Positions 1 to 26,574 of a DNA stretch of 52,398 nucleotides are shown in pieces. How positions within the stretch are numbered: the stretch's first letter is position 1; every line of letters starts with the position of its first letter. The stretch covers positions 1 through 52,398 of the forward strand of contig JAJFKF010000054.1 of NCBI GenBank assembly GCA_021773365.1, written 5' to 3'. The position numbers and the translations under genes are program-made. Under the pieces are notes generated by a model. It made no database searches. It was not told the DNA's origin and saw only the letters and a list, made by a program, of their open reading frames with translations. The stretch is from Gammaproteobacteria bacterium (GTDB taxonomy: Bacteria > Pseudomonadota > Gammaproteobacteria > Steroidobacterales > Steroidobacteraceae).

Positions 1-139
1 GCCTCAGCAACCTCCGCCGAAGATCACCGCCAGGCAGGCCGCCGAAGCCACCCCCGTGTAGTGCAGACCTGCGGGGGTGGGCCCTATGTCAATCAAGCAC
101 TTGCCGGTTCCCTACCCCTCGAATCGGCAAAGACGGGTT
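1..139. other. Unassigned left-edge segment
   Basis: No gene can be supported here. The receptor-like reading frame that follows is closed by an in-frame TAG at 59-61. The residues between that stop and about position 145 do not match the paralogous receptors elsewhere in the window. On the minus strand a short open stretch ends in TGA at 6-4 and has a small hydrophobic run, but it is preceded by a stop near 107-109 and has no visible start. The segment may be foreign sequence joined to the receptor remnant, or a decayed gene. Confidence 0.4.
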
Positions 140-523
140 AAAAACGGTCCGCTCGAGTGGCGCGGCAATGGCGGGGTGACCTGGAAGCGCGGCGCCTGGA
201 CCATGGGTTGGAACATGCAGTTCTACGATTCGTACCAGGCCTACAATGCGCTGGATTCAGCGGGCACGATCCTCCAGATAGTAGGCGCTCAGGGCTCGCG
301 CAGCATCCCCGGCCAGATGTATCACGATCTTTCGGTCCGCTACGTCGCGCCGGATGGTCCGGTTCCTTTTATGCGGATGCTGTCCGGGGCACAGATCCAG
401 CTTGGCATCCAGAATGTATTCGACACCTGGCCGCCGGTCGTGGCAAGCGGCGGCATCGGTTATTCCGGCTACGGCGACCCGCGCCTGCGCCGATACAGCC
501 TTTCATTGACCGCCAGATTCTAG
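77..523 (+). pseudogene. TonB-dependent receptor, 3' remnant
   Basis: Only the last strands of an outer-membrane TonB-dependent receptor barrel remain. From about position 145 the translation closely follows the C-termini of the receptors at 37293-40556 and 48688-51984: a WRGNGG motif, then NMQFYDSY, YHDL, a GIQNVFD motif, and the ending GDPRLRRYSLSLTARF with the terminal aromatic residue typical of outer-membrane proteins. A full receptor of this subfamily is about 1090 residues, whereas this frame has at most 148 and a TAG stop at 59-61. The first 20 or so residues after the ATG at 77 do not match the paralogues, so that ATG is probably not a real start. It is most likely a decayed gene or a recombination junction; a window-edge or assembly effect cannot be excluded. 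Confidence 0.7.
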
Positions 524-579: not shown

Positions 580-835
580 GCGTCTGGTGAACGTTAAGAA
601 TTCGTAATACTGTAATACGTCCATAGCAGGCTCCATTGAGTCTAATCACGCGTTGCCCGGTCACGGAGGCCGCTGGCTGCGAGATTAAGTCAATCCACGA
701 ATAGCTATGGTGCATGGTCGGGAACTCGCTCCCGGCTGATCTGACCAATACGCCCGAATGCACCCGGTGGGGTATTACATGCTGGATAAATATGTCTCTT
801 TTGCCGCGTACGGCGGTACGGTCGGAATGGGCGTG
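580..835 (+). other. Intergenic region upstream of the large operon
   Basis: This stretch lies between the receptor hairpin and the first operon gene and should hold the operon promoter, but no convincing -35/-10 pair stands out. A 7-bp direct repeat GTAATAC occurs at 604-610 and 612-618, and an 8-bp palindrome ATAGCTAT lies near 703-710. In-frame upstream starts for the next gene exist at 758 and 827, so part of this region could be translated. Confidence 0.3.
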
Positions 836-2437
836 ATGCGGCGCTGCACCGCGATACTTGCGCTGGCTGCCGTGGCGCTGTTCCTGGTGGGCGAGAGCGC
901 CCGGGCGCAGGCCACCGGTGATCTGGTCATCCCGGTCCGGGTAGTCGACGGCCATCTTATGGTCGTGGGATTCATCGCCAACCGCGCCGGCGACGTCAAC
1001 GACCTCAGCCTGGAGGTCTCCTTCGAGGATTCGGGCGTGCTGACGTTGCACGGCGACCAGCACGGGTGGCTGGACAGTCCTGCCATTGTGAAGGTCACGC
1101 TGAAGCCCGATGTGCCCCTGACGATTCCCGGCAACGAAGTGCGGGCAGATTCGCGTCAGGACCGCCAACAATGGCAGAACGCGATGACGCGTCTTCATTC
1201 CAACCAACTCGACGAGCACAAGGTCAAAGGTACGCTGGGTGCTGGCTTCCTGCGTAAGTATCGCGTGGTTCTGGATGTCGCAGCCGGCACGCTGACGCTG
1301 TCGCCGCCGGAGGTGGCTGCCCCGCTGCAGGCAGAGGTGGTGCGCGACTTCGAGCTGCGCCTTGGGCGACTCTGGCTATCGATGGACTACGCCGATAGCC
1401 GGTCTGGTGATCTGCTGCTCGGTGGTGACGCCTATGACACCTTTATAGATAGCGCTGTGGCCCGCAAGCTGGGCAAGCCGGCGGGCAATGTGGGCCCGGT
1501 GTGGCTTGGACTGCTGGCGCAGAGCGGTGGGGCGCAGGGCATCGATCTGGCGCAGCAGATGGCCTTTCGGCCCCGGGACATGGGGCAGGACGCCGACAAG
1601 GGCAACGACGCGGCGGTTTTCATCACCGGTGTCAACTTTCTGCAGGGTTTCCGTGTCGAAGTGGACTGGACGGACTCGAAGATAGGCTTTACCCGCACTA
1701 CTCGACCGGAGTACCCGCAGGCCGATTTCGCCTTTTTCCAGGCCCAACTGGACGGCGGCGCCGCGACCATGCAGGCCTATCTGGAGCAGTACCCGGATGC
1801 CCGACTGAGCCCCGATGCAGCCCGCAGCCTGATGGCGGCGCGGCTTGAACAGCCGGATGCCAGCGACGATGAGCTGATTGCGGCAATGCAATGGGTGGCG
1901 GATACCTCGCCACCGGAGCGACGAATGGAAAACTGCGTGGAATATGTGAAGCGTATCCGTCTCATGCCGGGGCGGGAGCAGGCCGTGGTGCTGGGCGGCA
2001 AGCTCGCGCTGCAGTATTCGCGCGAAGCCATCACCGTGCAGGATACCTATCGCCTGCACAACATCATCGGCGAGGCCTACATGGCGCAGGACCAGGTGAC
2101 CGAAGCCTGGAAGCACTTCCTCTCCGCTGCGTTCATGCCCCTGGATGACCGCACCGATCTGCCGCACAACATCGCCGTCAACGTCAATCTGGCCCGGGCT
2201 TACGATCGCATGGGGCGCAATACCCGCGCCTACTCGCGTTATCTGCGGGCCCAGGAAATGCTGATACCGATCAAGGATCAGGTGGAGGGCATAGACGACG
2301 CCACCGTCAACGACATGCCTGCCGCGCAGCGTGCGGAGGTACAGATGCTCAAGCAGGCCCTGATAGACATCAAAGAGGCCGTCGGACGTCTGCAGCAGCA
2401 GATACCGGCCGAAGAGCTGGAACTGCTGGAGGGCTGA
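836..2437 (+). CDS. Secreted retropepsin-like protein with C-terminal TPR-like region
   Basis: From the ATG at 836 the protein has 533 residues and begins with a clear signal peptide (MRRC, a hydrophobic core, then ARAQA), so it is predicted to be periplasmic or surface exposed. Upstream in-frame starts at 758 and 827 would put extra residues before the signal peptide and are less likely. The middle of the protein resembles retropepsin-like aspartyl protease domains. The stretch YDTFIDSAVARKLGKP is where such enzymes place their flap-proximal segment, but the catalytic Asp-Thr/Ser-Gly triad is not visible (GGDAYD occupies the place). It may be a non-catalytic binding protein. Roughly residues 330-510 are helical and TPR-like. 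The stop overlaps the next start (TGATG), which indicates translational coupling. The protease-fold assignment is tentative. Confidence 0.6.
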   Translation: MRRCTAILALAAVALFLVGESARAQATGDLVIPVRVVDGHLMVVGFIANRAGDVNDLSLEVSFEDSGVLTLHGDQHGWLDSPAIVKVTLKPDVPLTIPGNEVRADSRQDRQQWQNAMTRLHSNQLDEHKVKGTLGAGFLRKYRVVLDVAAGTLTLSPPEVAAPLQAEVVRDFELRLGRLWLSMDYADSRSGDLLLGGDAYDTFIDSAVARKLGKPAGNVGPVWLGLLAQSGGAQGIDLAQQMAFRPRDMGQDADKGNDAAVFITGVNFLQGFRVEVDWTDSKIGFTRTTRPEYPQADFAFFQAQLDGGAATMQAYLEQYPDARLSPDAARSLMAARLEQPDASDDELIAAMQWVADTSPPERRMENCVEYVKRIRLMPGREQAVVLGGKLALQYSREAITVQDTYRLHNIIGEAYMAQDQVTEAWKHFLSAAFMPLDDRTDLPHNIAVNVNLARAYDRMGRNTRAYSRYLRAQEMLIPIKDQVEGIDDATVNDMPAAQRAEVQMLKQALIDIKEAVGRLQQQIPAEELELLEG

Positions 2438-4008
2438 TGAATTCCGCTAACCAAAATCCGCAGCATGGTTACCTCGATCGGCTGGTTGCTCAGGCGCAGC
2501 GCTTCCTGCTGCGCTGGCGACTGCAGCGCGAGTTGCGTCAGGCCGCCACTACGGCATTGACGTGGTTGTTTGTTTTCCCGTTGCTGCTGCTGCTGGTACG
2601 CGTGGTCACGGGCGCATCGACGCCGGTCAATCTCTGGATGGTCGCTGCCCTTGCCCTGCTGGGGCCGGTGCTCTACGTGCTGTGGCGGGTCGCGCGCCAA
2701 TACCTGCAGTACCGTCCGGGTCGTCGCACCGGCCTTGCCCTGTTCGACAGCCAGCTCGACAGCAAGGATCGTCTGGTCACTGCCGATGAGTTCATGGATG
2801 AGGGAGCTGATGATCGATCAGCCGGCTCTTCGCATGCCTTCAAACAGGCGGCGGTCGATGATGCCGGGCAGTACGTCAATCGTGCCCTCCAGACCTCCCT
2901 TGATGCGCTGCCGATGCCCGAGTGGCGGGTACGCCCCTTGAGCTGGCTGGGTGTCCCCGCCGCTCTGGTGGTGATCGCTTTGCTGATCTGGGGAATCGGC
3001 GGTTCGGGGGCGGTCCTGCAGGATACGGATGAGGAGCGCCTGGCGTCCGCCGTGGAAGCGGATGCCGTGCCGGATACTGCCGGGCCGCAGCGCCTGGCCA
3101 TGCGGCGCGATCCGCGCCGTACGCAGGAGCCACAGCCCGATCCGCTGCTGACCACCGAACGCCCGCAGGAGCAGGCCAAACCCAGTCCGCAGCGTTCGCG
3201 CAACGAGGAGGCGGCTGAGGGGCAGTCCAACGCCGGCAGCGCCGCAATGGCGCAATCCTCCAGCAACTCCAGCAGCGCCGCCGGCCAGCCTTCCAGCCAG
3301 AAAAATGCCTCCAAGCCGGGTGAGCAGGAAGCGTCCCCCGAGGAAAAGAAGAAAAAAGACTCGGCGGCAAAGAAGCGCGCCAAACCGCCACAGCAGAATG
3401 CGCAGATGACCATGGAGGCTACTACCGGTCAGGGCAAAAGCGGTGGCTCCAGCAGCAGCGTCGCTGAGTTCGAGGTGCCGCAGCAGCCCGATCAGCTCGG
3501 CGCGGGGCTGAAGGAAGATGAACAGGCCGAGGAAACAGAAGACGAGGATGAAGAGGAGAAATCCAGCGGTGTCACCAAGCCGGGTCTGCGCGACCGCAAG
3601 GCGCCGGTGGATCGCAATGCCAGCCCCAGCCCGACCGGCAAAGAGTCACGCGATGACCTCAATGGTCGCGGTGGCCCGGGCTCGCGCAAGAAGACCCGTG
3701 GTGTGCCTTCAATGATCCTGGGCATTCCGATCGCAGACCGTGTGCAGGGTAAACCCAGTCCGGGCCGATCGAAGGTGACACAGGAGAATGCCAAGCCCAC
3801 CGCCGAATCCCATCCCTCGGCCGCCGCGCAGGAGCGCATGGCGCGCAATGAGCCGGCCGGCCATCTGGAACAGCAGCGCCTGCTGCCGTGGATGCAGGCC
3901 CTGATCCGCGACTATTTCATGAGCGTGCACGAGCAGGCCGCAGCGGCCCGGGGTGCGGACGCGGGTCCGGATGCCGGGCCGGACGAAGGCGCCGGCGGCT
4001 CGCGCTGA
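2437..4008 (+). CDS. Three-helix membrane protein with long charged low-complexity tail
   Basis: The 523-residue product has hydrophobic segments at about 39-58, 65-84 and 170-188. After these, roughly residues 200-460 form a hydrophilic tail rich in Ser, Gln, Glu and Lys, including an acidic run near residues 365-375. The segment between helices two and three (GLALFDSQLDSKDRLVTADEF) and the overall layout recall DUF4175-like membrane proteins, but this is a topology-level resemblance only. The gene starts one base inside the stop of the previous gene and is followed by a 55-bp gap before the MoxR ATPase. It is probably an inner-membrane partner of the MoxR/VWA proteins encoded downstream. 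No catalytic motif was recognised. Confidence 0.6.
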   Translation: MNSANQNPQHGYLDRLVAQAQRFLLRWRLQRELRQAATTALTWLFVFPLLLLLVRVVTGASTPVNLWMVAALALLGPVLYVLWRVARQYLQYRPGRRTGLALFDSQLDSKDRLVTADEFMDEGADDRSAGSSHAFKQAAVDDAGQYVNRALQTSLDALPMPEWRVRPLSWLGVPAALVVIALLIWGIGGSGAVLQDTDEERLASAVEADAVPDTAGPQRLAMRRDPRRTQEPQPDPLLTTERPQEQAKPSPQRSRNEEAAEGQSNAGSAAMAQSSSNSSSAAGQPSSQKNASKPGEQEASPEEKKKKDSAAKKRAKPPQQNAQMTMEATTGQGKSGGSSSSVAEFEVPQQPDQLGAGLKEDEQAEETEDEDEEEKSSGVTKPGLRDRKAPVDRNASPSPTGKESRDDLNGRGGPGSRKKTRGVPSMILGIPIADRVQGKPSPGRSKVTQENAKPTAESHPSAAAQERMARNEPAGHLEQQRLLPWMQALIRDYFMSVHEQAAAARGADAGPDAGPDEGAGGSR

Positions 4009-4063: not shown

Positions 4064-5082
<1,019 letters not shown>

Positions 5083-5083
<1 letters not shown>

Positions 5084-5997
5084 TGAACGCGGCTGCGCTC
5101 GACTTCAACGCCCTGTTCGACCCGGACTTCCTGTCCGCGCTCTCGCGCCTGAGCCTGAGTGCGCGGCGGGTGGCCGGTGGCGGGCGCCACGGCGAGCGGC
5201 TGTCGAAGGATCTCGGCAGCGGGGTGGAGTTCAAGGACTACCGTCCCTACAGCCCCGGCGACGACCTGCGTGCAATCGACTGGAACATCTATCGCCGGCT
5301 GGGCAAGTTGTCGCTGCGTTTGTTCGAGGAGCAGCAGGACCTGCCTATTTATCTGATGCCTGATTTATCCAGCAGCATGTTCCTGGAGTCCCCGCCGCGT
5401 ATTGTGGCCGGACTCCGGGCAACGTTGGCGATGGCGGCCATTGGTCTGGATCATCATGATTCGGCTGGTTTGTTTCCTTTTTCCGATCAGCTGCAGGTGG
5501 TGTTCAAGTCCAAGTCCGGTCGCGCCAGCGTGATGACCTTCGCACGCCATCTGGCGGCGCTGGTGCAGGACACACAGGACAATCCACGCCAGACGCATCT
5601 GGCCACGGCCGTGCAGCGCCTCTCGCACATGAAATTGCGCTCCGGGCTGCTGGTCATTGTCAGTGATTTCTTTGACCCGGAAGGGCTGGAGGCTCTGCGG
5701 GTGGCCATGCGCGCGGTGCGTCATCGCCTGCTGCTCATCCAGCTGACGAAGAAAAGCGATGCGGATCCGGCGTTGCAGGGCGATGTGCGTCTGCGCGACT
5801 GCGAGACCAACGAGGTGACGGATTTGACGCTCACCCCGGATGTCATTGCCCGCTACCGCGAGGCGTACAAGTCATTCAACGAGGAACTGGTGTCGCTGGC
5901 CAAGCGGCGCCGGGGTGCGGTGCTGCAGCTCGATGTGGATCAGGATCTGTTCGAGCAGCTCTCCACCCTGTTCCAGTCCGGGAGTCTGCAGGTATGA
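5083..5997 (+). CDS. DUF58 domain protein (VWA-like)
   Basis: This 304-residue soluble protein carries the DUF58 signature: residues 49-66 read EFKDYRPYSPGDDLRAIDW, followed by the conserved basic stretch to residue 80. A VWA-type MIDAS loop DLSSS is at 94-98, with all three metal-contact residues present. Proteins of this family accompany MoxR ATPases and are thought to act as their adaptor or substrate-binding partners; the precise role is unknown. The gene is coupled on both sides: it starts inside the MoxR stop codon, and its own TGA overlaps the ATG of the next gene by four bases (ATGA). Confidence 0.9.
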
Positions 5998-7724
5998 ACT
6001 TCGCCAATTTTTCGTGGCCCTGGGTGCTGGGTGGTCTGGGCGTTCTCGCCGCGGGCCTGTTCGCGCTGCAGATCCTGCGCATCCGCTACCGGGAAGTCAC
6101 GGTGGTCAGCACTCTGCTGTGGCGCCGCGCCATGCAGGAGGCGCCGGTGCGCAAATTCTGGGAGCGCTTCAAGCACCCCTGGGCGTATCTGCTGATCCTG
6201 GCGATCTGCGCAACCCTGTGGCTGGCGCTGGCCGAGCCACAGCCGGAGCGCGACAGCGATGGCAGTTTTCATGTGCTGGTGCTCGACGGATCGGCTGGCA
6301 TGGCCGCCGGGGAGCGCTATGCGCAGGCCATCGAAGCATTGAAGGATCAGGTCGGTGCACTCCCCCCGGGACAGCGTCAGGTACTGTGGAGCGGGGCGCA
6401 GGTGCGCACGCTGCTGAACCCCGGTGAAGACGAACTGCTGCTGGAACGGCGGCTCGAGAAGCTTGTCCCCCAGGCGGCGCCCGCCGGTGTGGAGAGATTG
6501 ATTGGTGAGCTGGCGATGACGCGCCACGGGCAGCAGGGTACTGAGGTGCTGATTTTCGGCGACGCGCCCGTGCGTCAGGCGGTGATCGATTCGCTTCCGC
6601 AGGGGATCAGTGTCAGAAGGGCACAGGCCATCCAGGCCCTCGAACGCAATACCGGCATTACCGCGCTGGGCGTGGCCGATGCGCAGTCGGGTATATGGGA
6701 CCGCGTGGATGTCTTCCTGCAGGTGCAGACCAGCGACGGCGCGGCCGTGGATGCGGGCGCCCTGCAAATCGATCTGGATGGTCAACCGGTGGGTGCGCCG
6801 CTGCGCGCCGCGCCTGGTGAAAGAAACGGCTGGCTGCTGCAGGACCTTCCCGCGCTCGGTGGTCTGCTCACCGTCAGGCTTGGTGCTGAGGACGAACTGG
6901 CGCTGGACAATGTAGCCAGCATTCGCCTGCCCGCCAAACCCTACATCGATGTTCAATTGTCGCCTTCGCTTGATTCGGCGCTGCGGGCCGTGCTGGAGGC
7001 CGATCCGGCGGTACGCCTGACGGACGTCAGCCCGCAGCTGGTCATCCGCCATGAGGGTGAGAGTCTAGGTGGTACGCTGCCGGCGCTGGAGTTTGTCGAT
7101 GCCGGTCGTCAGGCGCAGGCGTTTCTTCTCACTTATCCGCAGGATCTTCAAGGCGAGAACTATTTTGCGGACGCGGTCGAGGCCATCGGCCTCACCCAGA
7201 TCGATGCCATGGCGCTGGCCGATGCGGCGCAGAGGCCCATCGAGGTGAGCATGCAGTCCGGTGATGCCTGGAAACTGTCGCTGTGGCAGGAGCTGCTCGG
7301 CGAGGATTTCAACTTCACCCGTTCGCGCGCCTTCCCGCTGTTCATCGCCAACTCGGTGCGTTGGCTGGCGGGCATCCCGGCCGCCTATCCCTACGTGGCG
7401 GCGGGCCAGCCGCTGATGGCCGACGCCGCCGAGCGCACTGTGCAGGTGGTAGACGATGAGGGGCGCGCCATCGATCCGCTGGGCGTGGCGTTCGTGCCCG
7501 AACAGGCCGGAACGCTACCGCTGGCAGCGGGCGCCAGGCCACTATCGGTTTCACTGCTTGATCCGCTGACCACCACCACAGCCGCAGAGCCCACGCTGGA
7601 AGTGCCTGCCGGCGCAGTGGGTGGCGGAGCCAGTTCCAATCATGTGCTCACCGTGCTGTTGCTGCTGGCGCTGCTGCTGCTCTCTGCCGAGTGGTACGGG
7701 TATCGCAAAGGGCGTATGCCCTAA
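5994..7724 (+). CDS. BatA-like membrane protein with degenerate VWA domain
   Basis: The 576-residue protein begins with the aerotolerance (BatA) N-terminal module: a membrane helix at about 9-29, the conserved VSTLLWRRA region, and a second helix at about 62-80. A VWA-like domain follows, but its MIDAS loop reads DGSAG at 98-102 instead of DxSxS, so metal binding is probably lost. A last hydrophobic segment lies near the C-terminus (about 550-568). The domain between them is therefore expected on the periplasmic side, anchored at both ends. The ATG sits four bases inside the DUF58 stop. It presumably forms an inner-membrane complex with the double-VWA protein encoded next. Confidence 0.82.
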   Translation: MNFANFSWPWVLGGLGVLAAGLFALQILRIRYREVTVVSTLLWRRAMQEAPVRKFWERFKHPWAYLLILAICATLWLALAEPQPERDSDGSFHVLVLDGSAGMAAGERYAQAIEALKDQVGALPPGQRQVLWSGAQVRTLLNPGEDELLLERRLEKLVPQAAPAGVERLIGELAMTRHGQQGTEVLIFGDAPVRQAVIDSLPQGISVRRAQAIQALERNTGITALGVADAQSGIWDRVDVFLQVQTSDGAAVDAGALQIDLDGQPVGAPLRAAPGERNGWLLQDLPALGGLLTVRLGAEDELALDNVASIRLPAKPYIDVQLSPSLDSALRAVLEADPAVRLTDVSPQLVIRHEGESLGGTLPALEFVDAGRQAQAFLLTYPQDLQGENYFADAVEAIGLTQIDAMALADAAQRPIEVSMQSGDAWKLSLWQELLGEDFNFTRSRAFPLFIANSVRWLAGIPAAYPYVAAGQPLMADAAERTVQVVDDEGRAIDPLGVAFVPEQAGTLPLAAGARPLSVSLLDPLTTTTAAEPTLEVPAGAVGGGASSNHVLTVLLLLALLLLSAEWYGYRKGRMP

Positions 7725-7747
7725 AGGGCAAGAAGGACAGACAAGAT

Positions 7748-10312
7748 ATGTCGATCAGCTTTCTGTATCCGATTTTCCTGCTGCTTCTGCTGGCCATTCC
7801 GCTGCTGTGGTTCTATCCGCAACGGCTGGAATCCCGCACGCACGGCATCCTTCGCTCGGTGCTGGCGGCCTGCTTGATCCTGGCGCTGGCGCGTCCGGTG
7901 CTGCTGGCCAAGGAAGGCGCGCTGTTCCAGGTTCTGGTGCTCGATGAATCCGCCAGCCTTGATACACAGCGGCGCGAGCAGGCCCGTGAACTGGCTACGC
8001 GCTGGTTCGCACAGGTCGCGGACAAGGAGAAGTCCGCTGTCATTTTTGTTGGCGGCGATGCCGATGCCGGGTCCGGGACGGATGCCGCCTCGCTGGCTGC
8101 GCAGGCAGGTGTGGACGGCGCCGGCGCCTATATTCAGGTCGGAGAAGGTGGCAGCTCCGCGTTGAGCGCAGCCCTGGCCGCAGCCGAGCGGCAGATTCCG
8201 TCGGGTAGTCCGGGGTCGATTACGCTGGTGTCCGATGGTTTGTCCACCGACCGGCGCTGGGGCCCGGTGGTACAGACGCTGATCCGTCGTGGCATCGCGG
8301 TAAATGCCGCCGATCTTGGCCACGATGAAGCCGATGTGTATCCGGCCGGGCTGCGTACCGATGAAATACTGCGCGCTGGACAGACAGTGCGTGCGGAAGT
8401 GCAGCTGGTGGGTTCGGGAACAAACGTGCGCGTACGTCTGCTCGACGGCGAAGGCACGCAGCTGGCAATCTCCCAGCCCCTGGACACCGACGGACGGGCC
8501 ACCGTGGCGCTGCAGTTCGAACCGCGCCACCCGGGCTTCATGACCGTGCAGGCCGAGGTGTTGGCGGATGCGGATGCCGATCCCGGGAATAACGTTCTAG
8601 GGCGCACCCTGGCCATCCAGCCACCGGTGCGGTTGCTGTATCTCGGCGAACGCATGCAGGGCGGTTCCACGCGGCTGGGTGAACTGCTTGGCGGTGGTAT
8701 TGAGATCGAGGACGGCAGCGACTGGAATCTTGGGGATCTGCCCGACCTCACCGACTACGACCTGGTCATGGTTGATGACCGCACGGCCGCGCGCATGCCG
8801 GAGGCCTTTCAGGCACATCTGGCCACCGCGGTGCGTGAGCGCGGCCTTGGTCTGGTGTTCGCCGGTGGCAAGGCGGCCTTTGGCGCCGGTGGTTACGATG
8901 AAACCACGCTTGCCGAAACGCTGCCGGTGGACCTGCAGCAGAAGACCGAGAAGCGTGATCCCAGCACTGCGCTGGCGCTGATCATCGACACCTCGGGCTC
9001 GATGGGTGGCACCCGCATCGAACTGGCCAAGCAGGTGGCGCGCCTGGCGGTGCGACGGCTGAAGGCGCACGATCGGGTGGGTATCGTGGAATTCTATGGC
9101 AACAAACACTGGGCGCTGCCGCTGCAGTCGGCGGCCAACAAGGTCACCATCGACAGGGCCATCGGACGCATGCAGGCCATCGGCGGCACGGTGCTGTATC
9201 CGGCCATCGAAGAGGCCTACTACGGCCTGAAGAACATGGCCACCCGCTACAAACACATCATCATCGTCACCGATGCGGGCATTGAGGATTCCGACTACGA
9301 GTCCCTTATCCGTCGCATCAGCCACGACAACATCAATGTCTCCACGGTGCTGGTCGGCGCGCAGGCCCACAACCAGAGTCTCATCGACATGGCTTCGTGG
9401 GGCAACGGGCGCTTCTATTCGGCCTCCGACCGCTACAGCCTGCCGGAAGTGATTCTCAAGCAGCCCTCCACCATGAAGCTGCCGGCCTACAAGAATGGCA
9501 GTTTCTCCGTGGTTTCCCGTGGCGCTGAGGGCTGGTGGGGTGATATCGATCGCGAGCATCTGCCGGCACTGGCCGGCTATGTTGAAACAAACTCCCGGCC
9601 CGGCGCGGAAGTGCTGATCGAAGTGGAGGGCAGCGCCCATCCGGTACTGGCTACCTGGCACTTCGGTCTTGGGCGCGTGACCGCGCTGATGACCGAGCCG
9701 GTGGGCGCGGGTACGGCGAGCTGGCGTAACTGGAGCGACTATGGCCGTCTGCTGGCGCGCGTGGTGCAGCGGACTGCCGATGAGAGCCAGGCTTTCCAGT
9801 TCGCGCTGACGCGCAACGACCGGCAGGTGACGCTGATGGCCCGCCGCTACAGCGCTTCGGGCAGTCACTACCCACAGGCCAGTATTCTGCGCGAGGGTCG
9901 CGAGGCCGACAGTGAGGCGAGCGACACGCTGCAGTTCAGGCAGCTGGCGCCGGGGCATTTCGTGGCCGAGCTGATGCTCGATCCAGCAGAGGAGTTGCGG
10001 GTCAACGCCCGTGCGGTGGATGTGAGCGGCGCGACCCAGCCGCGTGGACAGATGCGGCTGATCTCGACGGCAGGCGCCGATGTGTTCGGCGAACGCCAGG
10101 TTGATCCACAGCTGGCGCTGAACCTGGAGCAGCTGGCGGCTGCCACGGCCGGTGCGTTCATCGATCCCACCGATCCGAACGCCGATTTCACCACTGCGCT
10201 GCACGAGGATATGAGTGCGCTGGAGTTGTATAAGCTGTGGTGGTACGCATTGCTCCTGGGCCTGCTGGTGTACCTGGCCGAATTGATCTGGCGGCGTTGG
10301 CCGCGAACCTGA
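7748..10312 (+). CDS. Membrane-anchored double-VWA protein with amidotransferase-like domain
   Basis: The product is 854 residues from the ATG at 7748, which has an AGAAGG ribosome site about 11 bases upstream; an earlier in-frame start at 7691 lies inside the previous gene. Two N-terminal helices are followed by a first VWA domain with MIDAS loop DESAS near residue 63. A class I glutamine-amidotransferase-like fold covers about residues 295-395 and has no obvious catalytic Cys. A second VWA domain has MIDAS loop DTSGS near residue 413. One C-terminal helix (about 830-850) re-anchors the protein. This layout is known from VWA proteins encoded in MoxR operons. It probably works with the preceding BatA-like protein. 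The 23-bp gaps on both sides suggest it belongs to the same operon. Confidence 0.85.
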   Translation: MSISFLYPIFLLLLLAIPLLWFYPQRLESRTHGILRSVLAACLILALARPVLLAKEGALFQVLVLDESASLDTQRREQARELATRWFAQVADKEKSAVIFVGGDADAGSGTDAASLAAQAGVDGAGAYIQVGEGGSSALSAALAAAERQIPSGSPGSITLVSDGLSTDRRWGPVVQTLIRRGIAVNAADLGHDEADVYPAGLRTDEILRAGQTVRAEVQLVGSGTNVRVRLLDGEGTQLAISQPLDTDGRATVALQFEPRHPGFMTVQAEVLADADADPGNNVLGRTLAIQPPVRLLYLGERMQGGSTRLGELLGGGIEIEDGSDWNLGDLPDLTDYDLVMVDDRTAARMPEAFQAHLATAVRERGLGLVFAGGKAAFGAGGYDETTLAETLPVDLQQKTEKRDPSTALALIIDTSGSMGGTRIELAKQVARLAVRRLKAHDRVGIVEFYGNKHWALPLQSAANKVTIDRAIGRMQAIGGTVLYPAIEEAYYGLKNMATRYKHIIIVTDAGIEDSDYESLIRRISHDNINVSTVLVGAQAHNQSLIDMASWGNGRFYSASDRYSLPEVILKQPSTMKLPAYKNGSFSVVSRGAEGWWGDIDREHLPALAGYVETNSRPGAEVLIEVEGSAHPVLATWHFGLGRVTALMTEPVGAGTASWRNWSDYGRLLARVVQRTADESQAFQFALTRNDRQVTLMARRYSASGSHYPQASILREGREADSEASDTLQFRQLAPGHFVAELMLDPAEELRVNARAVDVSGATQPRGQMRLISTAGADVFGERQVDPQLALNLEQLAAATAGAFIDPTDPNADFTTALHEDMSALELYKLWWYALLLGLLVYLAELIWRRWPRT

Positions 10313-10335: not shown

Positions 10336-13300
10336 ATGAATAGCCTTCCTGATTCCCGCCGGACATGGCTGCTGCCGGTCCTGGCCCTGCTGCTGGTCGC
10401 CGCGCTTCCCGCTGTTGCCGAGGAAGGCGCAGGGGAGGCCGCTACGGCGCCAATGAACTGGCGTCCGCTGCTGACGAGCTCGCCGATTGAGTTCGCCACG
10501 GTCGATCCCCTGTATCGCGACGCTGCCCGGCGCGAGGGCGGCATCCTGAAGGTGATCGAGGAGCTGAAGGCCTACGGCGCCGACGCCGCCCAGCCCAGTG
10601 AAAAACGCGCCAATGCGCTGCTGGTGGCCAGCCACATGCAGTGGCGCTACGGGCAGCGCAAGGAAGCCGCCGAGCTGGTCGATCAGGCGCTGAAGATGGA
10701 GGTCACCGCCGACCTCGCGTTGCAGCAGGCGCGGTTGCTCGAGGCCTCCGGTGAAGTCGAGCAGGCCCAGCGCTGGTACGAGCAGGCCTTTGAATTATTG
10801 AAGGATCCGAAGCGCAGGGAGCAGGTGCGCCTGCGCATGACCTTTGTTGCCGTGGGTCAGCAGAATATCGAAGCCCTGGTACGCCTGGCGCAAGGTCGCG
10901 ACCGCGCCTTTCGCAACCGTGCCGCCGTCGCGCTGGCGGTGCTGAACTACTACGACGAGGCCACCGGTCTGTATGAGGTGTACGGGGAGGGCAGCGAGCG
11001 CTTCCGCCAGCACCTGCGTCTCTCACAGTGGGCGCTGGAAGCAGGCCATGCGCCGGGCGCGCAGGAGGAGGCATGGAAGGCCGTACAGTCCGCGCCGCTC
11101 GACCGCGACCGGCGCTACGCCCTGAGCGTGCTGGTCGATGCCCATATGCTGGACGACTCCCTGGACAAGTTACTGACGCGTTTTGAAAAGAAGGGCAGGC
11201 TCACCGAGGAAGAGCAGGATGTGCGCATCGATCTGCTGCAGAAGCTCGGTCGATACGAAGAGGCGATTCGTCTGTTCAAGGAAGGGGACCGCAGCCAGAT
11301 TACCGCCGCCTCCCGTCGGCAGCTGCTGCGCATGTACAGCGATGCGGGGCGTACCGGTGACATGCTGGCCGAGTACCGCAAGCTCATGGCCGCGGAGCCC
11401 GACGAGGTGGCCTGGCCGGAGGGTCTGAGTCAGCACCTGATGGAGCAGGGCGAGCGCGAGGAGGCTCAGGCGATGTGGCGGGAGTTCATCGCGCGCAACG
11501 ACAATGTCGGCGTGCTGCTGTCAGCCGCGCAGACCATTGCCAGCTTCGGTTTCGACGATCTGGCTCTGGAAGCCGCCGACAAGGTGCTGACGGCGGATGA
11601 GCGCTTCGCCGCTCAGGCGTTGCTGTTTCACTTCGAGTTGCACATGCGCCGGGGTCGCACAGCCGAGGCCGGGCAGGTGCTAAAAAGAATGAACGAGACG
11701 CTCGCCGCCGATGCGCCTGAGCGGGTGGAGCTGGCCGATGCCTACGAGCGGATCGAAAAACCCCTGGAAGCCCTGCAGGTACTGGAGGCGCTGGACAAGG
11801 CCCGCCCCAACGGCCTGGGCACCGATGAGCGCATGCGCCTGGCGTGGTTGTACGACTCCACCGGCAAGCGCGAGGAGGCCTTGGCGGTATGGCAGAGCAT
11901 GTGGGACGGAAAGACTACCGAGGCTTTCCGTCGCCTGATCGAGAATCGCCTGGTGAGCCTGGCCGCCGAAACCGGCAGACTCGGGGACCTGGCGGTGGAT
12001 CTGGAAACGCGTCTGGCCGATGGCACGGCGACCAAGAAGGACAGCGCACTGCTGATCCGCATCTACACAGATACCAACGATTCGGCATCGGCAGTGGAGG
12101 TCATTCGCGAGTACTTCAGGCAGGGCGATGAGGACAGGAGCGCCGACGTGGAGAGCCTGCGCGAGCAGGCCAATGTGTATCGGGCGCTGGGACGCTATGA
12201 CGCCTACAAGACCTTGACCACCCGTTTGCTGCAGAGTGATCCCGAGAACCAGGTGGACTATCTGCAGTCGCTGATTCTCAATCAGCTGGAGAACGGCGCC
12301 GGGGGCGAGGAGAAGGCCGAGGAGCTCAAGGCGTGGCTGACGCAGCTGCGAGCAACTGGCGGCGGCGCGGCCGGCGCTGAATTCGAGGCCGGCATTCTGC
12401 AACTGGCCGGCATGGAGGATCAGGCCATCGCGACCTATCGGCGGGCGCTCGCCGAGAATCCTGATCACAGCGACAACTTCCTGTTGCTGGCGGATCTGCT
12501 GAAGAAGAACTCGCGTGAAGCGGAGGCCATCGGCGCGCTGCAGTACCTGATTGAAACCGCAGACCAGGACGACGCCTTCATTGTCGGCGTTGACGGCATC
12601 CTCAACATGCGCCCGCGTGACAAGTGGATCATCGAGTGGGCCCAGCGCCGGGTGCTGGAGCGCCTCACCGCCCGCGATGACAAGCTGTACCTGTATGACC
12701 TGCTGGCTGAACTGGCCGAAGGGGCAGGAGACACCAAGGTTTATCTATCGGCGCTGGAGAACTCTCTGGCCTATGCCAACAGCCGCCGTTCCAATGTACT
12801 GCGCGAGCTGATCTCGGCCACGGGCGAGAAGAACGCCATGAGCGTCATGATGGGCGGTTCGGCGGGCGAGGCGGATCCGGAAAGAAATCTGCGCTACAGC
12901 CGCCGGCTGATCTCTCTGCAGGAGGAACTGCCGCCGGAGGTCTACACGGACATGGGCAAACTGTTCCTGGAGATGAACGATCCTGAGAGCGCTGCCGATG
13001 CATTCAACCACGCCATTGACCGTACCGGCGAGCCGCATCTGGTCGAGGAAACCGGGGATCTGTTCCGCAACCAGGGCTACAACCGCCAGGCAATGGTGCA
13101 GTATGAGAAGGCGCTGATCGCCGACACGGACAATTACGGGGTCATGCGCAAGCTCGCCGACGTGCGCGCGCGACAGGGTGCGCTGGCCGATGCCAATGCG
13201 CTGTACCTGCGCGCGATGCTGGGACTGCTGCGCAGCCTTCCGCTGGAGATCGAAAAGACCGGTGCAAACGGTGCGGCGCCCACGCTGGACAGTACAGTGA

Positions 13301-16300
13301 GCTATGCCTTCAGGGAAAACTACTGGTCACTACTGGCAGGGTTCCTGTACACGTTGCCCGAGGAATCCAGCGGACAATTTGCCGCCATCGAACAGGCCTT
13401 CGCCGAAGCGATGAACGAAGCGGTACAAAGTGCCGACGGACAGTTCTCCAAGGCGCTGGTCTACTACCCGCGGTTGAATACCACGGCGCGCATGGTGCGC
13501 GATAGCGCGCAGCGCAGCGGCAATACGGTGCTGGCCAATGAAGTGGAGCAGCAGTTGCTGCAGCACTTCGACGCCGACAAGGCGCTGGTGGCGGAGCTGA
13601 GACCTGCGGACGAGGCTGCAGACGGGGTAAGTTGGCTGCTGCCCTCCACTGCGTCCGCTCAGGCGGCGTTGGCCCGCAAACAGTATGAGCGTGCGGTGGC
13701 TATCGCGCTGTTCAATGGCGATCAGGCGCTGGCGTTGACGGCTTATCGGGACTGGGCACGGCAGGAGCTGCAGGGCAACGATGCAGGTGGCGAGCGCGAT
13801 GCCATCATGATGGCGATCATGGGCCGCCGCGGAAACATTGCAAACGTGGTGCGTCAGGCGAAGGAGAAGCTCGGTACACAGGAATTCGCCAGTCTGTGCC
13901 GCTATGTCTTCGACCTGGCCTCCGGTCGTGAGGAATACCAGCGCAAGTTCCTGTTCGCCAACCCGTACATGTTCGCGCGGGGCGGTGAGTCTCTGCTCCT
14001 CAGCATGGAGAAAGCCGCCGGTCGTCAGTTCCTTTCCAGCAGACAGCTCAAGCCGTTGCTGACCGGTGTCGGCCCGGGCTTCGATGTGGCCTACGTGATG
14101 AATCGCCTGTCGGTCGACGACGGGATTGAAATCCTGGAGCGCGAGGTGGCAGGGAGTGGTGAGAGATCCGGGGGCGTTCGAATGGCCCTGCCGGCAGTGA
14201 AGGCACTGCTGGAGCAGCGGCTCAGTGCCCGGCAGGGCGAGCGCCTGCTGGAATTGCTCAAGAAGGAAAGCCAGAAGGCCATGGGCGCCGGAGCCATGGG
14301 TAACCTGAACATGGAGATGCTTTGGGGCGCTGGTCTGACTGAAAATCTGGCCAGGGAGAATGCCGGTCTGCTGGAGCAGTTCGATGAGTTTCTTGCCGAG
14401 GCCGATGCCGATACCTTCGTGCCCGGCTTCCTCAAGGTTGATGTGCTGCTGGCCACGGGGCGGGAGCGTCAGGCATTGCCATTGCTGGTGGAGGTGGCCC
14501 TGCAGCGCCAGGGCGCGGCATCACGCCGCAATCGCGCCATGGCAGCGCTGAACCCGTTCATGCCTCCACAGGGTAATGCCGTCGCACAGTACATCCAGAA
14601 ATATGCCGGCGCGATCTATCCGCGGTACGGTGGGGAGGTCATGGCGCTGGCCATGGCCAGGCAGAAGGAACTGGGCATGAAGCCGGAGGTGTTTTCGCTG
14701 CTGTACGCCCTGCATGCCGTCGACCCGCAAATGGATCCTGCCTCTGTCGTGCACTGGCTGGAGGGCGTCGCGGCTCAGGAACCGAAAAACGAAACGGTGC
14801 TGGAAGCATTGCTCGATCAGTACACCCGGCTGGGTTACGCGGACTTGCAGCTGAAGACCCTGGACCGGCTGGTTGAGGTGGCCCCTCGCAAGGTGGAGTA
14901 CCGCAAGCGTCTGTATGGGCTGTGGCAGCAGCTGGAGAATCCCGAGAACGCGGTGAAGGCCGCCAACGGCAAGCTGGCCGAGATGGCGGTGGCGGTGGAA
15001 GTGGACCCGCGCGCCCGGGCGATACAGCGGATGGCGCGTCAGGCCGGCGGCGGTGGCGGCCCGGTGGGCAAGGCGACGGAACAAATTGTTGGCATCGAGC
15101 GTGATGGCGATGAGGAACAGGCGCGCATGGGGTTGCGCAGCCTGTGGCAGATGCTGCCGCCGTCAGGCGCCTCCCGATCCGATCTCAGGCAGCTGATGGG
15201 CGGTTCCGATGGTATGCGGGTTCTGCAGTACAACGCCCTGTTTGGACTGGGTTGGCCGGGCAGCGTGCGGGGTAGCTCCGGGCAGAGCGGCGCCGCAACC
15301 CGGGGCACCGCTGTCCCGGCTGGCGCGGTTGCCGCCACCTTGGCTGCACCGGCGGGCGCCGTGCGTGCAATCACCTTGATGCCGGCTGGTGGTAGCGCCC
15401 TCGTCGCAACGGCACGCGGAGCGCCTGGTGGCACCGCTGCGAATGCAGCTGGCACCGCCAGTATTCTGCGCGCGCTCACTGCCGAGTCTCCGCAGCCGGA
15501 TCGCTTCGATCGCGAGGACAAGCTCCTGGATGCACTCGTCAAGTACGAATTTTTTGTCGATGAGCTGGAGTCACAGGTTCGCACCCTGTCGGCCGAGGAC
15601 ATCGATCAGCACTACCTGCTGTACGAGTTGCTGGCCCGGGGATACAGCGAGCATGGTCGCCTGCCCGCCGAGCTTGAACGTCTGGGGGCGCGCGTGCAGT
15701 CACAGCAGGCCAGCGGGAAGGAAACACTGTTGTGGCTGGAGCTGGTGATGCTGCTGCCGCGCGAGCAGATCCAGCCGCTGCTGCCCCTGGTTGAGCAGGT
15801 CGCCGGCAGCATGGTCGGTCAGGACGGTTACCGGCAGATCGTGCTGGCGCGGGTGTTCGGTCGCGGAGGCCAGGATGAACGGGCCGCTGATATCTACAGC
15901 AGTATTGTGTTGTCTTCGAAGGGCGGCAACCCGATGGCGATGTTTATGGGTCGCGGGTCTTCCGCGCCTACGACGGCCACCAGTCTGTATGTCGATGCCC
16001 AGGAATATCTCGGCGAGGTGGGGCTGAACCGTTTCACCAAGGCCCTGCTGCGCATTGCCGCACCCGATGAAGAGGTGGCCGGTTCCGGGGTCTACGAGCA
16101 CTTCGTGATGTGGATGCTGGAGCGCAATCCGCAGTCGCAGCCGGCACTGCAGGAATTCCAGTCGCTGCTGAACGGACAGACCGATGTGGCCAACTGGCGG
16201 CAGGACACGGTGATACGTGCGTCCGCTCTCCTGGCGCAGCTGGGACGCAACGCCGAGGCACTGGACCTGCTGGCCGTGGCGCTGAGAGTCCCGGAGCGTT

Positions 16301-17556
16301 CACTGCCTTCCGAGGAGGATATTTTCAATCCACGCGGACAGAACCCCCGGCAACAGGCGATACAGCAGTACTTTGCCGCGCTCGGCCTGCAGGGGCAGGG
16401 CGGGAACATGCCCTGGCAGATGGAGCGGCAGCGGAGCGTAAATTCGCCTGCGGAGGCATTCAAACCGCTGTTTCCAGTCCGCGCCGATGCCTGGGCCGGC
16501 GTGCAGGCCTGGACACAGCAGGCCTGCAATGCGGTGGCCGGCTGGATAGAGCAGGGCAGTGCGCAGCGTGAGTTGGGTCTGCAGGTGATGGCATTGATGA
16601 CCCTGAGCCAGCATCAGCTCGGCGCCGCTGTTCCGGCGCAGGCCTGCGGGCAGCAGATGGCACAACTGCTTGCTCCGTATGAGTCCGCACCGTATGGCAC
16701 CGCATCGCTGGTAGTTGCCGTACTGCAGCGGGTGCAGGCGCCGGCGGATGCGCAGATGCTGCGCAGCCTGATCGCCGGCCGTCGTGTGGAGGTGAACCTG
16801 CTGGCGCCGGCCCTGCAGCGCATGTCGACGGACGATGCAGGTACGGCGCTGGAGCTGGCCGAGGCGGCACTGGCCTACACGCAGGAAGCTGAGCTGCTCA
16901 GCCTGACCCGCAAGCTGGCGGAGAGCCAGGGACGCGCCGATCTGGTGCAGCGGGTCACCGACATCCAGAAGAAGGCTGCCGACGCGCGCATGGCGATCGA
17001 GCGCGGTGAGGATGCGAAGGATTCCGCGCAGCTCTCAGGCGTGCTGGGAGAGGAAGCCGGAGCGGGCAGTGGCCCCGGGATCGGTGAGACCATCGATCTG
17101 AAGTTCACCGCCGTGGATGGGCGTGAAGTGGATCTGGCCAAGCTCAAGGGCCAGGTGGTGCTGGTGGATTTCTGGGCCACCTGGTGCGGGCCCTGTATCG
17201 CCGAACTGCCCAACGTCAAGCGCGTATATGAGAGCTACAAGGATCAGGGCTTCACCATTGTCGGCATTTCCCTGGATCGCTCCAATGCGGAACAGAAACT
17301 GATCGACTTTGTGGCCAAGAACAACATGCCCTGGCCGCATCACTTCGATGGCAAGTGGTGGGAGAATGAATTCGCCGTCAAGAATGGCGTCAAGGCCATT
17401 CCGGCAGCCTGGCTGTTTGATCAGGACGGCAAGCTGGTTACCAAGAGCGCTCGCGGACAGAAGCTGGAGGACGAGGTGCAACGGTTGCTGAGCGAGCATC
17501 AGCAGACCGCCGATGCCAGCGGTTCCACGCCGGAGGCGGGCGGCGGCGGAACATAA
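10336..17556 (+). CDS. Giant exported TPR protein with C-terminal TlpA-type thioredoxin domain
   Basis: From the ATG at 10336 (AAGGTGG five bases upstream) the protein has 2406 residues. It starts with a signal peptide (LLPVLALLLVAALPAVAEE). Almost the whole length is a helical, TPR-like solenoid with repeated pairs such as EEAIRLFKEG, EALAVWQSM and AIATYRRALAENPDH. An Ala/Gly-rich linker interrupts it at about residues 1639-1714. The last 150 residues form a TlpA/ResA-like thioredoxin domain with a WCGPC active site (Cys2284, Cys2287) and the cis-Pro segment AIPAAWL. It is predicted to be periplasmic and is the last gene of the operon. The combination suggests a scaffold that brings a thiol reductase to large envelope assemblies; this is inference. 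Its size and fusion are unusual. Confidence 0.85.
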   Translation: MNSLPDSRRTWLLPVLALLLVAALPAVAEEGAGEAATAPMNWRPLLTSSPIEFATVDPLYRDAARREGGILKVIEELKAYGADAAQPSEKRANALLVASHMQWRYGQRKEAAELVDQALKMEVTADLALQQARLLEASGEVEQAQRWYEQAFELLKDPKRREQVRLRMTFVAVGQQNIEALVRLAQGRDRAFRNRAAVALAVLNYYDEATGLYEVYGEGSERFRQHLRLSQWALEAGHAPGAQEEAWKAVQSAPLDRDRRYALSVLVDAHMLDDSLDKLLTRFEKKGRLTEEEQDVRIDLLQKLGRYEEAIRLFKEGDRSQITAASRRQLLRMYSDAGRTGDMLAEYRKLMAAEPDEVAWPEGLSQHLMEQGEREEAQAMWREFIARNDNVGVLLSAAQTIASFGFDDLALEAADKVLTADERFAAQALLFHFELHMRRGRTAEAGQVLKRMNETLAADAPERVELADAYERIEKPLEALQVLEALDKARPNGLGTDERMRLAWLYDSTGKREEALAVWQSMWDGKTTEAFRRLIENRLVSLAAETGRLGDLAVDLETRLADGTATKKDSALLIRIYTDTNDSASAVEVIREYFRQGDEDRSADVESLREQANVYRALGRYDAYKTLTTRLLQSDPENQVDYLQSLILNQLENGAGGEEKAEELKAWLTQLRATGGGAAGAEFEAGILQLAGMEDQAIATYRRALAENPDHSDNFLLLADLLKKNSREAEAIGALQYLIETADQDDAFIVGVDGILNMRPRDKWIIEWAQRRVLERLTARDDKLYLYDLLAELAEGAGDTKVYLSALENSLAYANSRRSNVLRELISATGEKNAMSVMMGGSAGEADPERNLRYSRRLISLQEELPPEVYTDMGKLFLEMNDPESAADAFNHAIDRTGEPHLVEETGDLFRNQGYNRQAMVQYEKALIADTDNYGVMRKLADVRARQGALADANALYLRAMLGLLRSLPLEIEKTGANGAAPTLDSTVSYAFRENYWSLLAGFLYTLPEESSGQFAAIEQAFAEAMNEAVQSADGQFSKALVYYPRLNTTARMVRDSAQRSGNTVLANEVEQQLLQHFDADKALVAELRPADEAADGVSWLLPSTASAQAALARKQYERAVAIALFNGDQALALTAYRDWARQELQGNDAGGERDAIMMAIMGRRGNIANVVRQAKEKLGTQEFASLCRYVFDLASGREEYQRKFLFANPYMFARGGESLLLSMEKAAGRQFLSSRQLKPLLTGVGPGFDVAYVMNRLSVDDGIEILEREVAGSGERSGGVRMALPAVKALLEQRLSARQGERLLELLKKESQKAMGAGAMGNLNMEMLWGAGLTENLARENAGLLEQFDEFLAEADADTFVPGFLKVDVLLATGRERQALPLLVEVALQRQGAASRRNRAMAALNPFMPPQGNAVAQYIQKYAGAIYPRYGGEVMALAMARQKELGMKPEVFSLLYALHAVDPQMDPASVVHWLEGVAAQEPKNETVLEALLDQYTRLGYADLQLKTLDRLVEVAPRKVEYRKRLYGLWQQLENPENAVKAANGKLAEMAVAVEVDPRARAIQRMARQAGGGGGPVGKATEQIVGIERDGDEEQARMGLRSLWQMLPPSGASRSDLRQLMGGSDGMRVLQYNALFGLGWPGSVRGSSGQSGAATRGTAVPAGAVAATLAAPAGAVRAITLMPAGGSALVATARGAPGGTAANAAGTASILRALTAESPQPDRFDREDKLLDALVKYEFFVDELESQVRTLSAEDIDQHYLLYELLARGYSEHGRLPAELERLGARVQSQQASGKETLLWLELVMLLPREQIQPLLPLVEQVAGSMVGQDGYRQIVLARVFGRGGQDERAADIYSSIVLSSKGGNPMAMFMGRGSSAPTTATSLYVDAQEYLGEVGLNRFTKALLRIAAPDEEVAGSGVYEHFVMWMLERNPQSQPALQEFQSLLNGQTDVANWRQDTVIRASALLAQLGRNAEALDLLAVALRVPERSLPSEEDIFNPRGQNPRQQAIQQYFAALGLQGQGGNMPWQMERQRSVNSPAEAFKPLFPVRADAWAGVQAWTQQACNAVAGWIEQGSAQRELGLQVMALMTLSQHQLGAAVPAQACGQQMAQLLAPYESAPYGTASLVVAVLQRVQAPADAQMLRSLIAGRRVEVNLLAPALQRMSTDDAGTALELAEAALAYTQEAELLSLTRKLAESQGRADLVQRVTDIQKKAADARMAIERGEDAKDSAQLSGVLGEEAGAGSGPGIGETIDLKFTAVDGREVDLAKLKGQVVLVDFWATWCGPCIAELPNVKRVYESYKDQGFTIVGISLDRSNAEQKLIDFVAKNNMPWPHHFDGKWWENEFAVKNGVKAIPAAWLFDQDGKLVTKSARGQKLEDEVQRLLSEHQQTADASGSTPEAGGGGT

Positions 17557-26200: not shown

Positions 26201-26515
26201 TGGGATCGCGGACCGTGGAACGCCTCGGCATACTTCACGTACCTGAGCGCTTTCTCGACCAACCAGGCCGGCAATCTCTTTACCTCCAGCTATCCCATCC
26301 CGTCGCAGACCAAGCTCGATCTGAACGGTGGCTATGAGTTCCGGGAAGGTCTGTGGGGCGGACGCGCCAAGGGTCTGCGCGTGAGCTTCGGTATCGGCAA
26401 TGTGCTCGACGAGGAGCCGCCATTCTCTGATACGGTTTTCGGCTTTAACGGCGGTCTGCACTCGCCGCTGGGCCGCACCTGGCAGACCTCTATCCAGATG
26501 CCGTTCGGAAACTAG
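23276..26515 (+). pseudogene. TonB-dependent receptor with STN domain, interrupted by an in-frame TAG
   Basis: A single reading frame of 1080 codons encodes a complete FecA-like receptor except for one TAG at 23882-23884 (codon 203). The first part has a good ribosome site (AGGGGG), a signal peptide and an STN signalling domain (about 30-105), then the start of the plug (LTLADFLNSLPQN). After the stop the frame continues without shift: AGISAGRGSAPNELNPEFGQRTETT, the plug motif VSLRGLGSGSTLVLVDGRRV, and a full barrel ending in MPFGN. The two open parts are 23276-23884 and about 23885-26515. Reading frame, codon use and residues stay receptor-like across the stop. This could be a recent nonsense mutation, a sequencing error, or a gene needing suppression. 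Substrate is unknown. Confidence 0.85.
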
Positions 26516-26543
26516 ACCGGCCCGGATAAGGTCTCAATGTTCA

Positions 26544-26574
26544 ACTGCGATGCGGCGGGAAGCCGCATCGCAGT
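26544..26574 (+). terminator. Strong hairpin after the broken receptor
   Basis: ACTGCGATGCGGC (26544-26556) and GCCGCATCGCAGT (26562-26574) form a perfect 13-bp stem with a GGGAA loop, 29 bp past the receptor stop. No T-tract follows. It is the strongest hairpin between the receptor and the thioredoxin gene and may limit read-through or protect the receptor mRNA end. Confidence 0.55.

Follow-up and report, generated by a model that had tools for sequence, protein, structure and literature searches.

A giant, predicted exported solenoid protein with a C-terminal TlpA-type domain closes a Bat-like MoxR/VWA operon in a gammaproteobacterial genome

Gene content of the locus

We analysed a stretch of 52,398 nucleotides from Gammaproteobacteria bacterium (contig JAJFKF010000054.1), hereafter the window. 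Seven closely spaced genes run in the order orf559, orf523, MoxR, DUF58, BatA-N, VWA/GATase1-like and giant, the last of which closes the run and encodes the giant protein described here (Table 1). MoxR, DUF58 and BatA/VWA genes stand together, as expected of a Bat operon, and the gene order is kept in many of the giant loci found in other genomes. The run therefore resembles Bat (Bacteroides aerotolerance)/MoxR-VWA operons, in which MoxR, DUF58, BatA-N and VWA membrane proteins are found together with a TPR protein. It differs from them in that the TPR protein of this family is 2,100-2,400 aa long, the VWA protein carries a GATase1-like domain, TlpA is fused to the giant, and no BatD was recognised; neither orf559 nor orf523 matched a Pfam family at E 0.001, a threshold at which a distant likeness to BatD could be missed. 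A PADLOC search for anti-phage defence genes returned no match for the giant and only weak AAA matches for MoxR, and a defence role was set aside for want of a match to the giant.

Elsewhere on the contig, a protein with three thioredoxin-fold domains (two with WCGPC; 26537-28393) directly follows ECF, FecR, STN and TonB-receptor frames. The STN (23276-23884) and TonB receptor (23978-26515) are separate frames there, while many other receptors of this genome have both on one chain, and a split or frameshifted gene at 23276-26515 is possible. Two further ECF-FecR-TonB-receptor modules lie at 35586-40556 and 46922-51984. A class I (E/Q) tRNA synthetase gene and four tRNAs on the same contig speak against the modules being misbinned.

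Table 1 Features of the operon and of the giant protein within the window.
Feature	Coordinates	Strand	Basis
TonB-dependent receptor, C-terminal piece cut by contig start, upstream of operon	77..523	+	phmmer match to C86 TonB receptor, E 4e-13
orf559, first operon gene; N-terminal hydrophobic stretch, no Pfam family	758..2437	+	Pfam, hydropathy, relatives in other giant loci
orf523, membrane protein; long charged low-complexity stretch, no Pfam family	2437..4008	+	Pfam, hydropathy, other giant loci
MoxR AAA+ ATPase	4064..5083	+	AAA_3 210.6 bits
DUF58 protein	5083..5997	+	DUF58 116.2 bits
Membrane protein with BatA N-terminal domain	5994..7724	+	PF07584 29.8 bits; three hydrophobic segments
VWA + GATase1-like membrane protein	7691..10312	+	VWA 73.2, GATase1_like 32.3 bits; hydrophobic 18-46, 52-75, 848-867
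Giant solenoid-TlpA protein (P0001), 2,406 aa	10336..17556	+	Translation, Pfam, AlphaFold2 models
Signal peptide, ~residues 1-28	10336..10419	+	Sequence, hydrophobic 9-33; cleavage site inferred
N-terminal TPR arm, residues 29-960	10420..13215	+	Model, helix spacing
Irregular helical solenoid, residues 961-1642	13216..15261	+	Models, helix spacing; 1553-1572 low-confidence
Disordered Ala/Gly-rich linker, residues 1643-1705	15262..15450	+	pLDDT below 50, composition
Second helical arm, residues ~1730-2237, long helix 2201-2237 at end	15523..17046	+	Model
TlpA/ResA-type thioredoxin domain, residues 2254-2376	17095..17463	+	Pfam, ResA-like PDB chains
WCGPC motif, residues 2283-2287	17182..17196	+	Sequence

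Architecture of the giant protein

Translation of 10336-17556 (+) gives one open frame of 2,406 codons plus stop, beginning at ATG 10336 and without an internal stop, in agreement with the initial annotation, which had described a single polypeptide of 2,406 residues. A frame error joining two genes, the event named there as fatal to the idea, did not occur: it is ruled out by the open frame, by GC content by codon position, which is coherent along the gene (the contrast is weaker at residues 1651-1800, adjoining the linker), and by two more co-linear copies in the same genome, both with the TlpA domain. The giant is thus real and not an artefact, and it is mostly as first described. The start at 10336 is favoured over an alternative in-frame GTG, possible at 10237, because the sole strongly hydrophobic segment of the giant by hydropathy (residues 9-33) fits a signal peptide, through which the protein is predicted to be exported to the periplasm. 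A lipobox Cys motif marks a lipoprotein signal; the signal region of the giant has no cysteine and hence no lipobox.

Two AlphaFold2 runs cover residues 29-2406 (29-1228 and 1207-2406). The first (47 sequences) consists of helical hairpins with a mean pLDDT of 85.3 and a pTM of 0.72. The second (54 rows, 7 of them separate TlpA domains; mean pLDDT 74.9, pTM 0.71) is helical to about residue 1640 and from about 1730 to 2237, with disorder in between at 1643-1705, and is thioredoxin-like thereafter; the model at residues 1553-1572 has low confidence. The earlier statement that TPR-like repeats run almost throughout the chain holds in part. The models do show a helical solenoid, and its first ~930 residues (29-960) have regular TPR spacing, with a median start-to-start distance between alternate helices of 35 residues and 80% of distances within 31-37 residues, so that TPR periodicity, whose absence had been named as the other refuting outcome, is clear in the N-terminal arm. 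Beyond it the solenoid stays helical but is irregular, with 18% (961-1228), 37% (1229-1640) and 36% (1700-2237) of distances in that range. Pfam TPR_14, TPR_1, TPR_8 and TPR_19 exceed the cut-off for the whole giant, and no single stretch passes E 0.001.

An Ala/Gly-rich linker had been placed at residues 1639-1714. This segment is 30% Ala and 18% Gly, lacks Glu, Asp and Lys, and contains a long stretch with pLDDT below 50 (1643-1705; blocks 24-39). In the model a helical arm lies on either side, consistent with the suggestion that the linker parts the solenoid into two arms. Between the same anchors, the region spans 111 residues in the window protein versus 24-73 in 47 other aligned giants, which makes the long Ala/Gly stretch peculiar to the window copy. 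Among solved structures, the N-arm model resembles many TPR/HAT solenoids, and the top-ranked ones are mostly eukaryotic (spliceosome, SKI, IFT-A); we took these matches as evidence of shape only and not as a functional clue. Similarity to LbcA (PDB 7rqf; Z 14.1, rmsd 17.8, 427 aligned) is no better than that to unrelated solenoids, so this likeness too speaks of shape and not of function.

The C-terminal domain is of the TlpA/ResA thioredoxin-like type by sequence, with Pfam scores over cut-off for Redoxin (65.6 bits, best stretch 2257-2376), AhpC-TSA (63.4) and Thioredoxin_8 (59.6). Its best PDB sequence matches are ResA/TlpA-like proteins, and the WCGPC previously noted at Cys2284-Cys2287 is indeed intact (motif 2283-2287), so a thioredoxin-family domain with WCxxC, which defines TlpA/ResA membership, is present. 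The modelled domain aligns with 3fw2 (Z 10.9, rmsd 2.9, 116 aligned) in a part of the model that has low confidence (10-residue pLDDT blocks 36-81). Like TlpA/ResA reductases, the giant carries WCxxC in a thioredoxin-family domain and is exported (predicted for the giant); unlike them, its domain is joined to ~2,250 residues of solenoid. The domain is of the thiol-reductase type and reductase activity is predicted. For a DsbD-type electron feed, the genome shows a single match above the cut-off and another below it, which we count against a reducing scaffold.

Copies within the genome and origin of the fusion

The genome (3.97 Mb, 157 contigs) encodes three giants. The second is a complete, co-linear frame of 2,413 aa on contig C86 (P0002; 55-56% identity), and the third is broken at contig ends into a piece on C57 and another on C64, which match the query up to residue 1364 and from residue 1367. 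In the respective trees, the three fused TlpA domains cluster together (SH-aLRT 98), as do the three solenoids (SH-aLRT 100), with identical branching, and a single fusion followed by duplications would be the simplest history of these copies.

The two extra giants sit in a different setting. The C86 giant is preceded by a 167-aa fragment that resembles VWA residues 706-873 (60% identity, L039:9057-9560), and the C57 giant by a 101-aa fragment resembling VWA residues 719-819 (54% identity, L040:4302-4607). The remnant at C86 retains the terminal hydrophobic segment and that at C57 is without it. Both copies lack the MoxR set and are directly preceded by ECF-FecR-TBDR genes. VWA C-terminal remnants before both giants suggest that it was the 3' end of the operon that moved behind ECF-FecR-TonB-receptor genes.

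As to whether the fusion is conserved, all three copies of this genome are fused, whereas none of the 46 complete giants from other records contains WCxxC (incomplete giants left out; several loci share a genome or are almost identical), so the family as a whole is not characterised by the fusion. In a tree of 70 TlpA domains (42 of the genome's own 91 matches, taken from the stretches analysed, 15 near giants, 13 of relatives), the fused TlpA sits among TlpAs of its own genome (SH-aLRT 89-90, unstarred), apart from a clade of TlpAs that adjoin giants elsewhere. An origin from the latter clade is disfavoured by the tree, with a log-likelihood lower by 33.84 (AU p 0.0626, not rejected at 5%). 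Both this tree and that of the giants were built quickly, with SH-aLRT as the only branch support, and the latter gave a long-branch warning. TlpA and the giant thus probably came together on two occasions, in one case as adjacent genes and in the other by fusion.

The genome is rich in TlpA, with 91 Redoxin matches in 4.0 Mb versus 5-21 in 58 relatives (in that comparison the genome itself scored for 54 matches; 91 comes from the own-genome search). One could therefore suppose that one of these many TlpAs joined a giant by chance and was carried along, with the reductase not serving the scaffold, in line with the position of the fused domain nearest to own-genome TlpAs and with the restriction of the fusion to one genome. 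Two observations oppose this explanation: WCGPC is intact in all three copies despite divergence of the N-arm to 71% identity (window copy) and 85% (the other two copies), and separate TlpA genes lie beside giants elsewhere in several arrangements. We consider it quite improbable.

Distribution of the giant family

Within the order, giants occur in 9 of 396 genomes, the present one included, and in 3 of 72 genera (E 1e-30); in a sample of the class, 1 of 369 genomes has a giant, namely this one. A scan of a genome contig collection yielded 55 loci, of which all but L122 and L123 contain a whole or partial giant (53 loci), while a scan of genome contigs with P0001 alone as query gave no matches. 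The family comprises proteins of ~2,100-2,400 residues. In Gammaproteobacteria, Opitutaceae and Planctomycetota MAGs, the giant gene is often the one that ends a Bat-like MoxR/DUF58/BatA/VWA operon; 32 of 53 loci have a VWA gene no more than 3 kb from the giant, and in many the wider operon is present as well. The loci are labelled Gammaproteobacteria, Woeseiaceae, Pseudomonadales, OMG group, Parashewanella curva, Opitutaceae and Planctomycetota, and short pieces Verrucomicrobiaceae, Chloroflexi and Poribacteria. Many of the Gammaproteobacteria isolates are presumably sponge-derived. Two or three giant solenoid genes stand in tandem in L085, L088, L091 and L100 (Gammaproteobacteria MAGs). The Planctomycetota-labelled L086, a 3.5-kb MAG contig with 52% identity, may be a misbinned relative.

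The giants of the window genome cluster with three Opitutaceae giants (SH-aLRT 99, giant tree). The window MoxR likewise matches Opitutaceae best (79-80%; L069, L070), as do DUF58, BatA and VWA (56-60%). The operons nearest to that of the window are those of the Opitutaceae MAGs L069, L070 and L080. Since the closest kin lie in Opitutaceae even though the genome's own order also holds giant-bearing Gammaproteobacteria (records of L093, L103, L116 and L119), transfer of the operon between phyla is probable, provided that the MAG labels are correct.

Among titles and abstract openings of the open-licence literature, we found nothing on a giant TPR protein encoded in a MoxR/VWA operon or on a TPR-TlpA fusion, and the main text of PMC6793856 contains no mention of TlpA, thioredoxin, MoxR, TPR or FecR. 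The window protein thus belongs to a giant-solenoid family of which those titles and abstract openings gave no description.

Enzymes beside the giants

In 9 of 53 loci an immediate same-strand neighbour of the giant is a TlpA gene, upstream in L075, L077, L081, L087 and L089 and downstream in L093, L103, L116 and L119. In L079, L084 and L106 the TlpA gene lies shortly before the operon, and in L098 and L120 it is near the giant on the other strand. Among the eight other giant-bearing genomes of the order, five have TlpA directly after the giant, these being all five g36 genomes (four of them are already counted above as L093, L103, L116 and L119). From the 5-21 Redoxin matches per genome in relatives, about 1 of 53 loci would by rough chance expectation have a TlpA within 3 kb; given relatedness among loci, the nine adjacent cases perhaps represent three or four events. 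Except for that of L120, the giant-adjacent TlpAs form one clade (SH-aLRT 98), suggesting that the pairing is old and that its position shifts. Separate TlpA genes beside giants lend indirect support to a link between scaffold and reductase. No TlpA was found in those positions in 39 of 53 loci (plain phmmer; some contigs end early).

In Woeseiaceae the neighbour is an M16 protease, directly after the giant in 4 of 6 loci (L109, L111, L112, L114) and shortly before the operon in L071, thus present in 5 of 6; in the sixth, L072, a response regulator and a histidine kinase follow the giant and not M16. The window genome has six M16_C matches (on C102, C131 and C141), none of them on its giant-bearing contigs (C107, C86, C57, C64). 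Neither TlpA nor M16 occupies those positions in 29 of 49 giant-tree rows, including a clade of 16 and the Opitutaceae rows (some contigs end early).

The TonB-receptor setting

Two of the three giants of this genome sit in ECF-FecR-TonB-receptor loci, and the genome has at least 116 TonB-barrel matches (two in one gene) and at least 150 FecR matches, versus 0-13 of the latter in 39 relatives. On the same strand and within 3 kb 3' of a TonB barrel lie 40 of the 91 Redoxin matches, while 2 lie 5' and 5 within 3 kb on the other strand (counted with 115 of the 116 barrel matches, the second piece of one gene being dropped). TlpA directly follows a TonB receptor in 18 of 20 chosen stretches around Redoxin matches, mostly with ECF and FecR genes. 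In other genomes, a TonB receptor lies within 3 kb of the giant on either strand in 9 of 53 loci; ECF-FecR-TBDR genes directly precede the giant, without MoxR, in L092, L094 and L097 (STN unmatched in L097 and L092), and a TonB receptor gene lies upstream in the Woeseiaceae loci L109, L111, L112 and L114.

ECF-FecR-TBDR genes upstream of two copies, together with the abundance of FecR, could be read as signalling, the giant, TonB receptor and FecR forming a sensor arm that informs ECF sigma factors of cargo or redox state. We regard this as very unlikely: ECF-FecR-TBDR-TlpA modules are common in this genome without any giant, and no ECF or FecR gene lies directly beside the window operon, whose upstream side is cut by the contig start.

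The main rival to the reading that we favour below gives weight to the operon instead. A Bat/MoxR-VWA maturation platform without a role in uptake would have the scaffold hold an envelope protein or complex during its remodelling by MoxR and VWA, with TlpA maintaining its cysteines in the reduced form so that a metal or cofactor can be inserted. The frequent proximity of VWA genes to giants and the position of the window giant at the end of MoxR-DUF58-BatA-VWA are in line with this, as are the three Opitutaceae loci, the nearest kin, which have the operon and near which no TonB receptor was seen. Precedents exist as well. An extract of PMC9976466 describes the MoxR/VWA pair NorQ/NorD as needed for iron insertion into nitric oxide reductase, and one of PMC5700661 notes TPR proteins in the Bat operons of further bacteria and, for Borrelia BB0173, three TM segments and a VWA domain facing the periplasm; the window VWA protein similarly has two N-terminal hydrophobic regions and one C-terminal. 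Against a maturation platform stand the two extra copies and L092, L094 and L097, which lie behind a TonB receptor without the MoxR set, and the protease neighbour in Woeseiaceae. On balance we find a maturation platform somewhat doubtful.

Proposed function

We tentatively favour, at a little below even confidence, a periplasmic docking scaffold that would hand cargo, perhaps TonB-imported, to a reductase, which accounts most simply for the fusion and the adjacent TlpA genes, for M16 in place of TlpA, and for the TonB-receptor setting. This is close to the docking frame first proposed, an interpretation that is partly supported. The two solenoid arms, joined by the flexible linker, would bind polypeptide cargo and partner proteins, and the C-terminal TlpA domain would reduce disulfides in the cargo held by the arms. 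Where the full operon is present, MoxR as the ATPase and VWA, BatA and DUF58 at the membrane may drive or gate loading or release, following the Bat precedent and that of NorQD, a MoxR/VWA couple of the kind that remodels client proteins. Because TlpA follows a TonB receptor in the two extra copies and in the 40 Redoxin matches above, mostly under ECF/FecR, the likeliest cargo would be a disulfide-containing polypeptide taken up through a TonB-dependent receptor. Against the docking scaffold stand the restriction of the fusion to one genome, the many loci and tree rows with neither TlpA nor M16, the Opitutaceae kin with neither enzyme and no TonB receptor seen, the regulators that follow the giant in L072, and the low model confidence of the TlpA domain. 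The domains, modelled fold, copies, operon and neighbours are observations; from them we infer the location of the giant, its cargo, the redox direction and the role of ATP hydrolysis. A more ambitious version, which we hold unlikely in its entirety, is a TonB-linked import-and-processing machine: the receptor would import a folded polypeptide, a two-arm solenoid, maybe spanning the periplasm, would capture it, an exchangeable enzyme (TlpA here, M16 in Woeseiaceae) would dismantle it and MoxR/VWA would power release, the scaffold having been redeployed into ECF-FecR-TonB-receptor loci.

Parts of the docking scaffold have counterparts in known systems. LbcA of Pseudomonas aeruginosa is described in an extract of PMC8764530 as a TPR spiral that might wrap its substrate and deliver it to the protease CtpA; like it, the giant would be an exported TPR spiral delivering substrate to an enzyme. 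LbcA is, however, an outer-membrane lipoprotein with 11 TPRs that serves a protease, whereas the giant has no lipobox, is far longer and carries its enzyme, a thiol-reductase-type domain, on the same chain. In protease-associated import, FusC is an M16 protease acting on TonB-imported ferredoxin, according to extracts of PMC6071955 and PMC6793856, and the Woeseiaceae giant loci with M16 resemble such Fus systems, L109, L111, L112 and L114 also in an upstream TonB receptor gene. Unlike Fus systems, the giant-bearing contigs of the window genome lack M16, a scaffold and a MoxR/VWA set are added, and TlpA replaces the protease.

The MoxR/VWA operon and the TonB-receptor setting, both absent from the initial annotation, bear most on function. 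An extract of PMC3557215 reports Bat deletion in Leptospira biflexa without a phenotype, and Bat protein function is therefore unsettled. The expansion of ECF-FecR-TonB-receptor-TlpA modules in this genome is striking in its own right. Across lineages, a giant exported solenoid goes with a reductase or a protease, as a neighbour or as a fused domain, and the fusion is a natural 'Rosetta stone' that links TlpA to the scaffold. For MoxR/VWA (Bat) operons, the variant with the giant solenoid gives a testable hint at what such an operon may act on.
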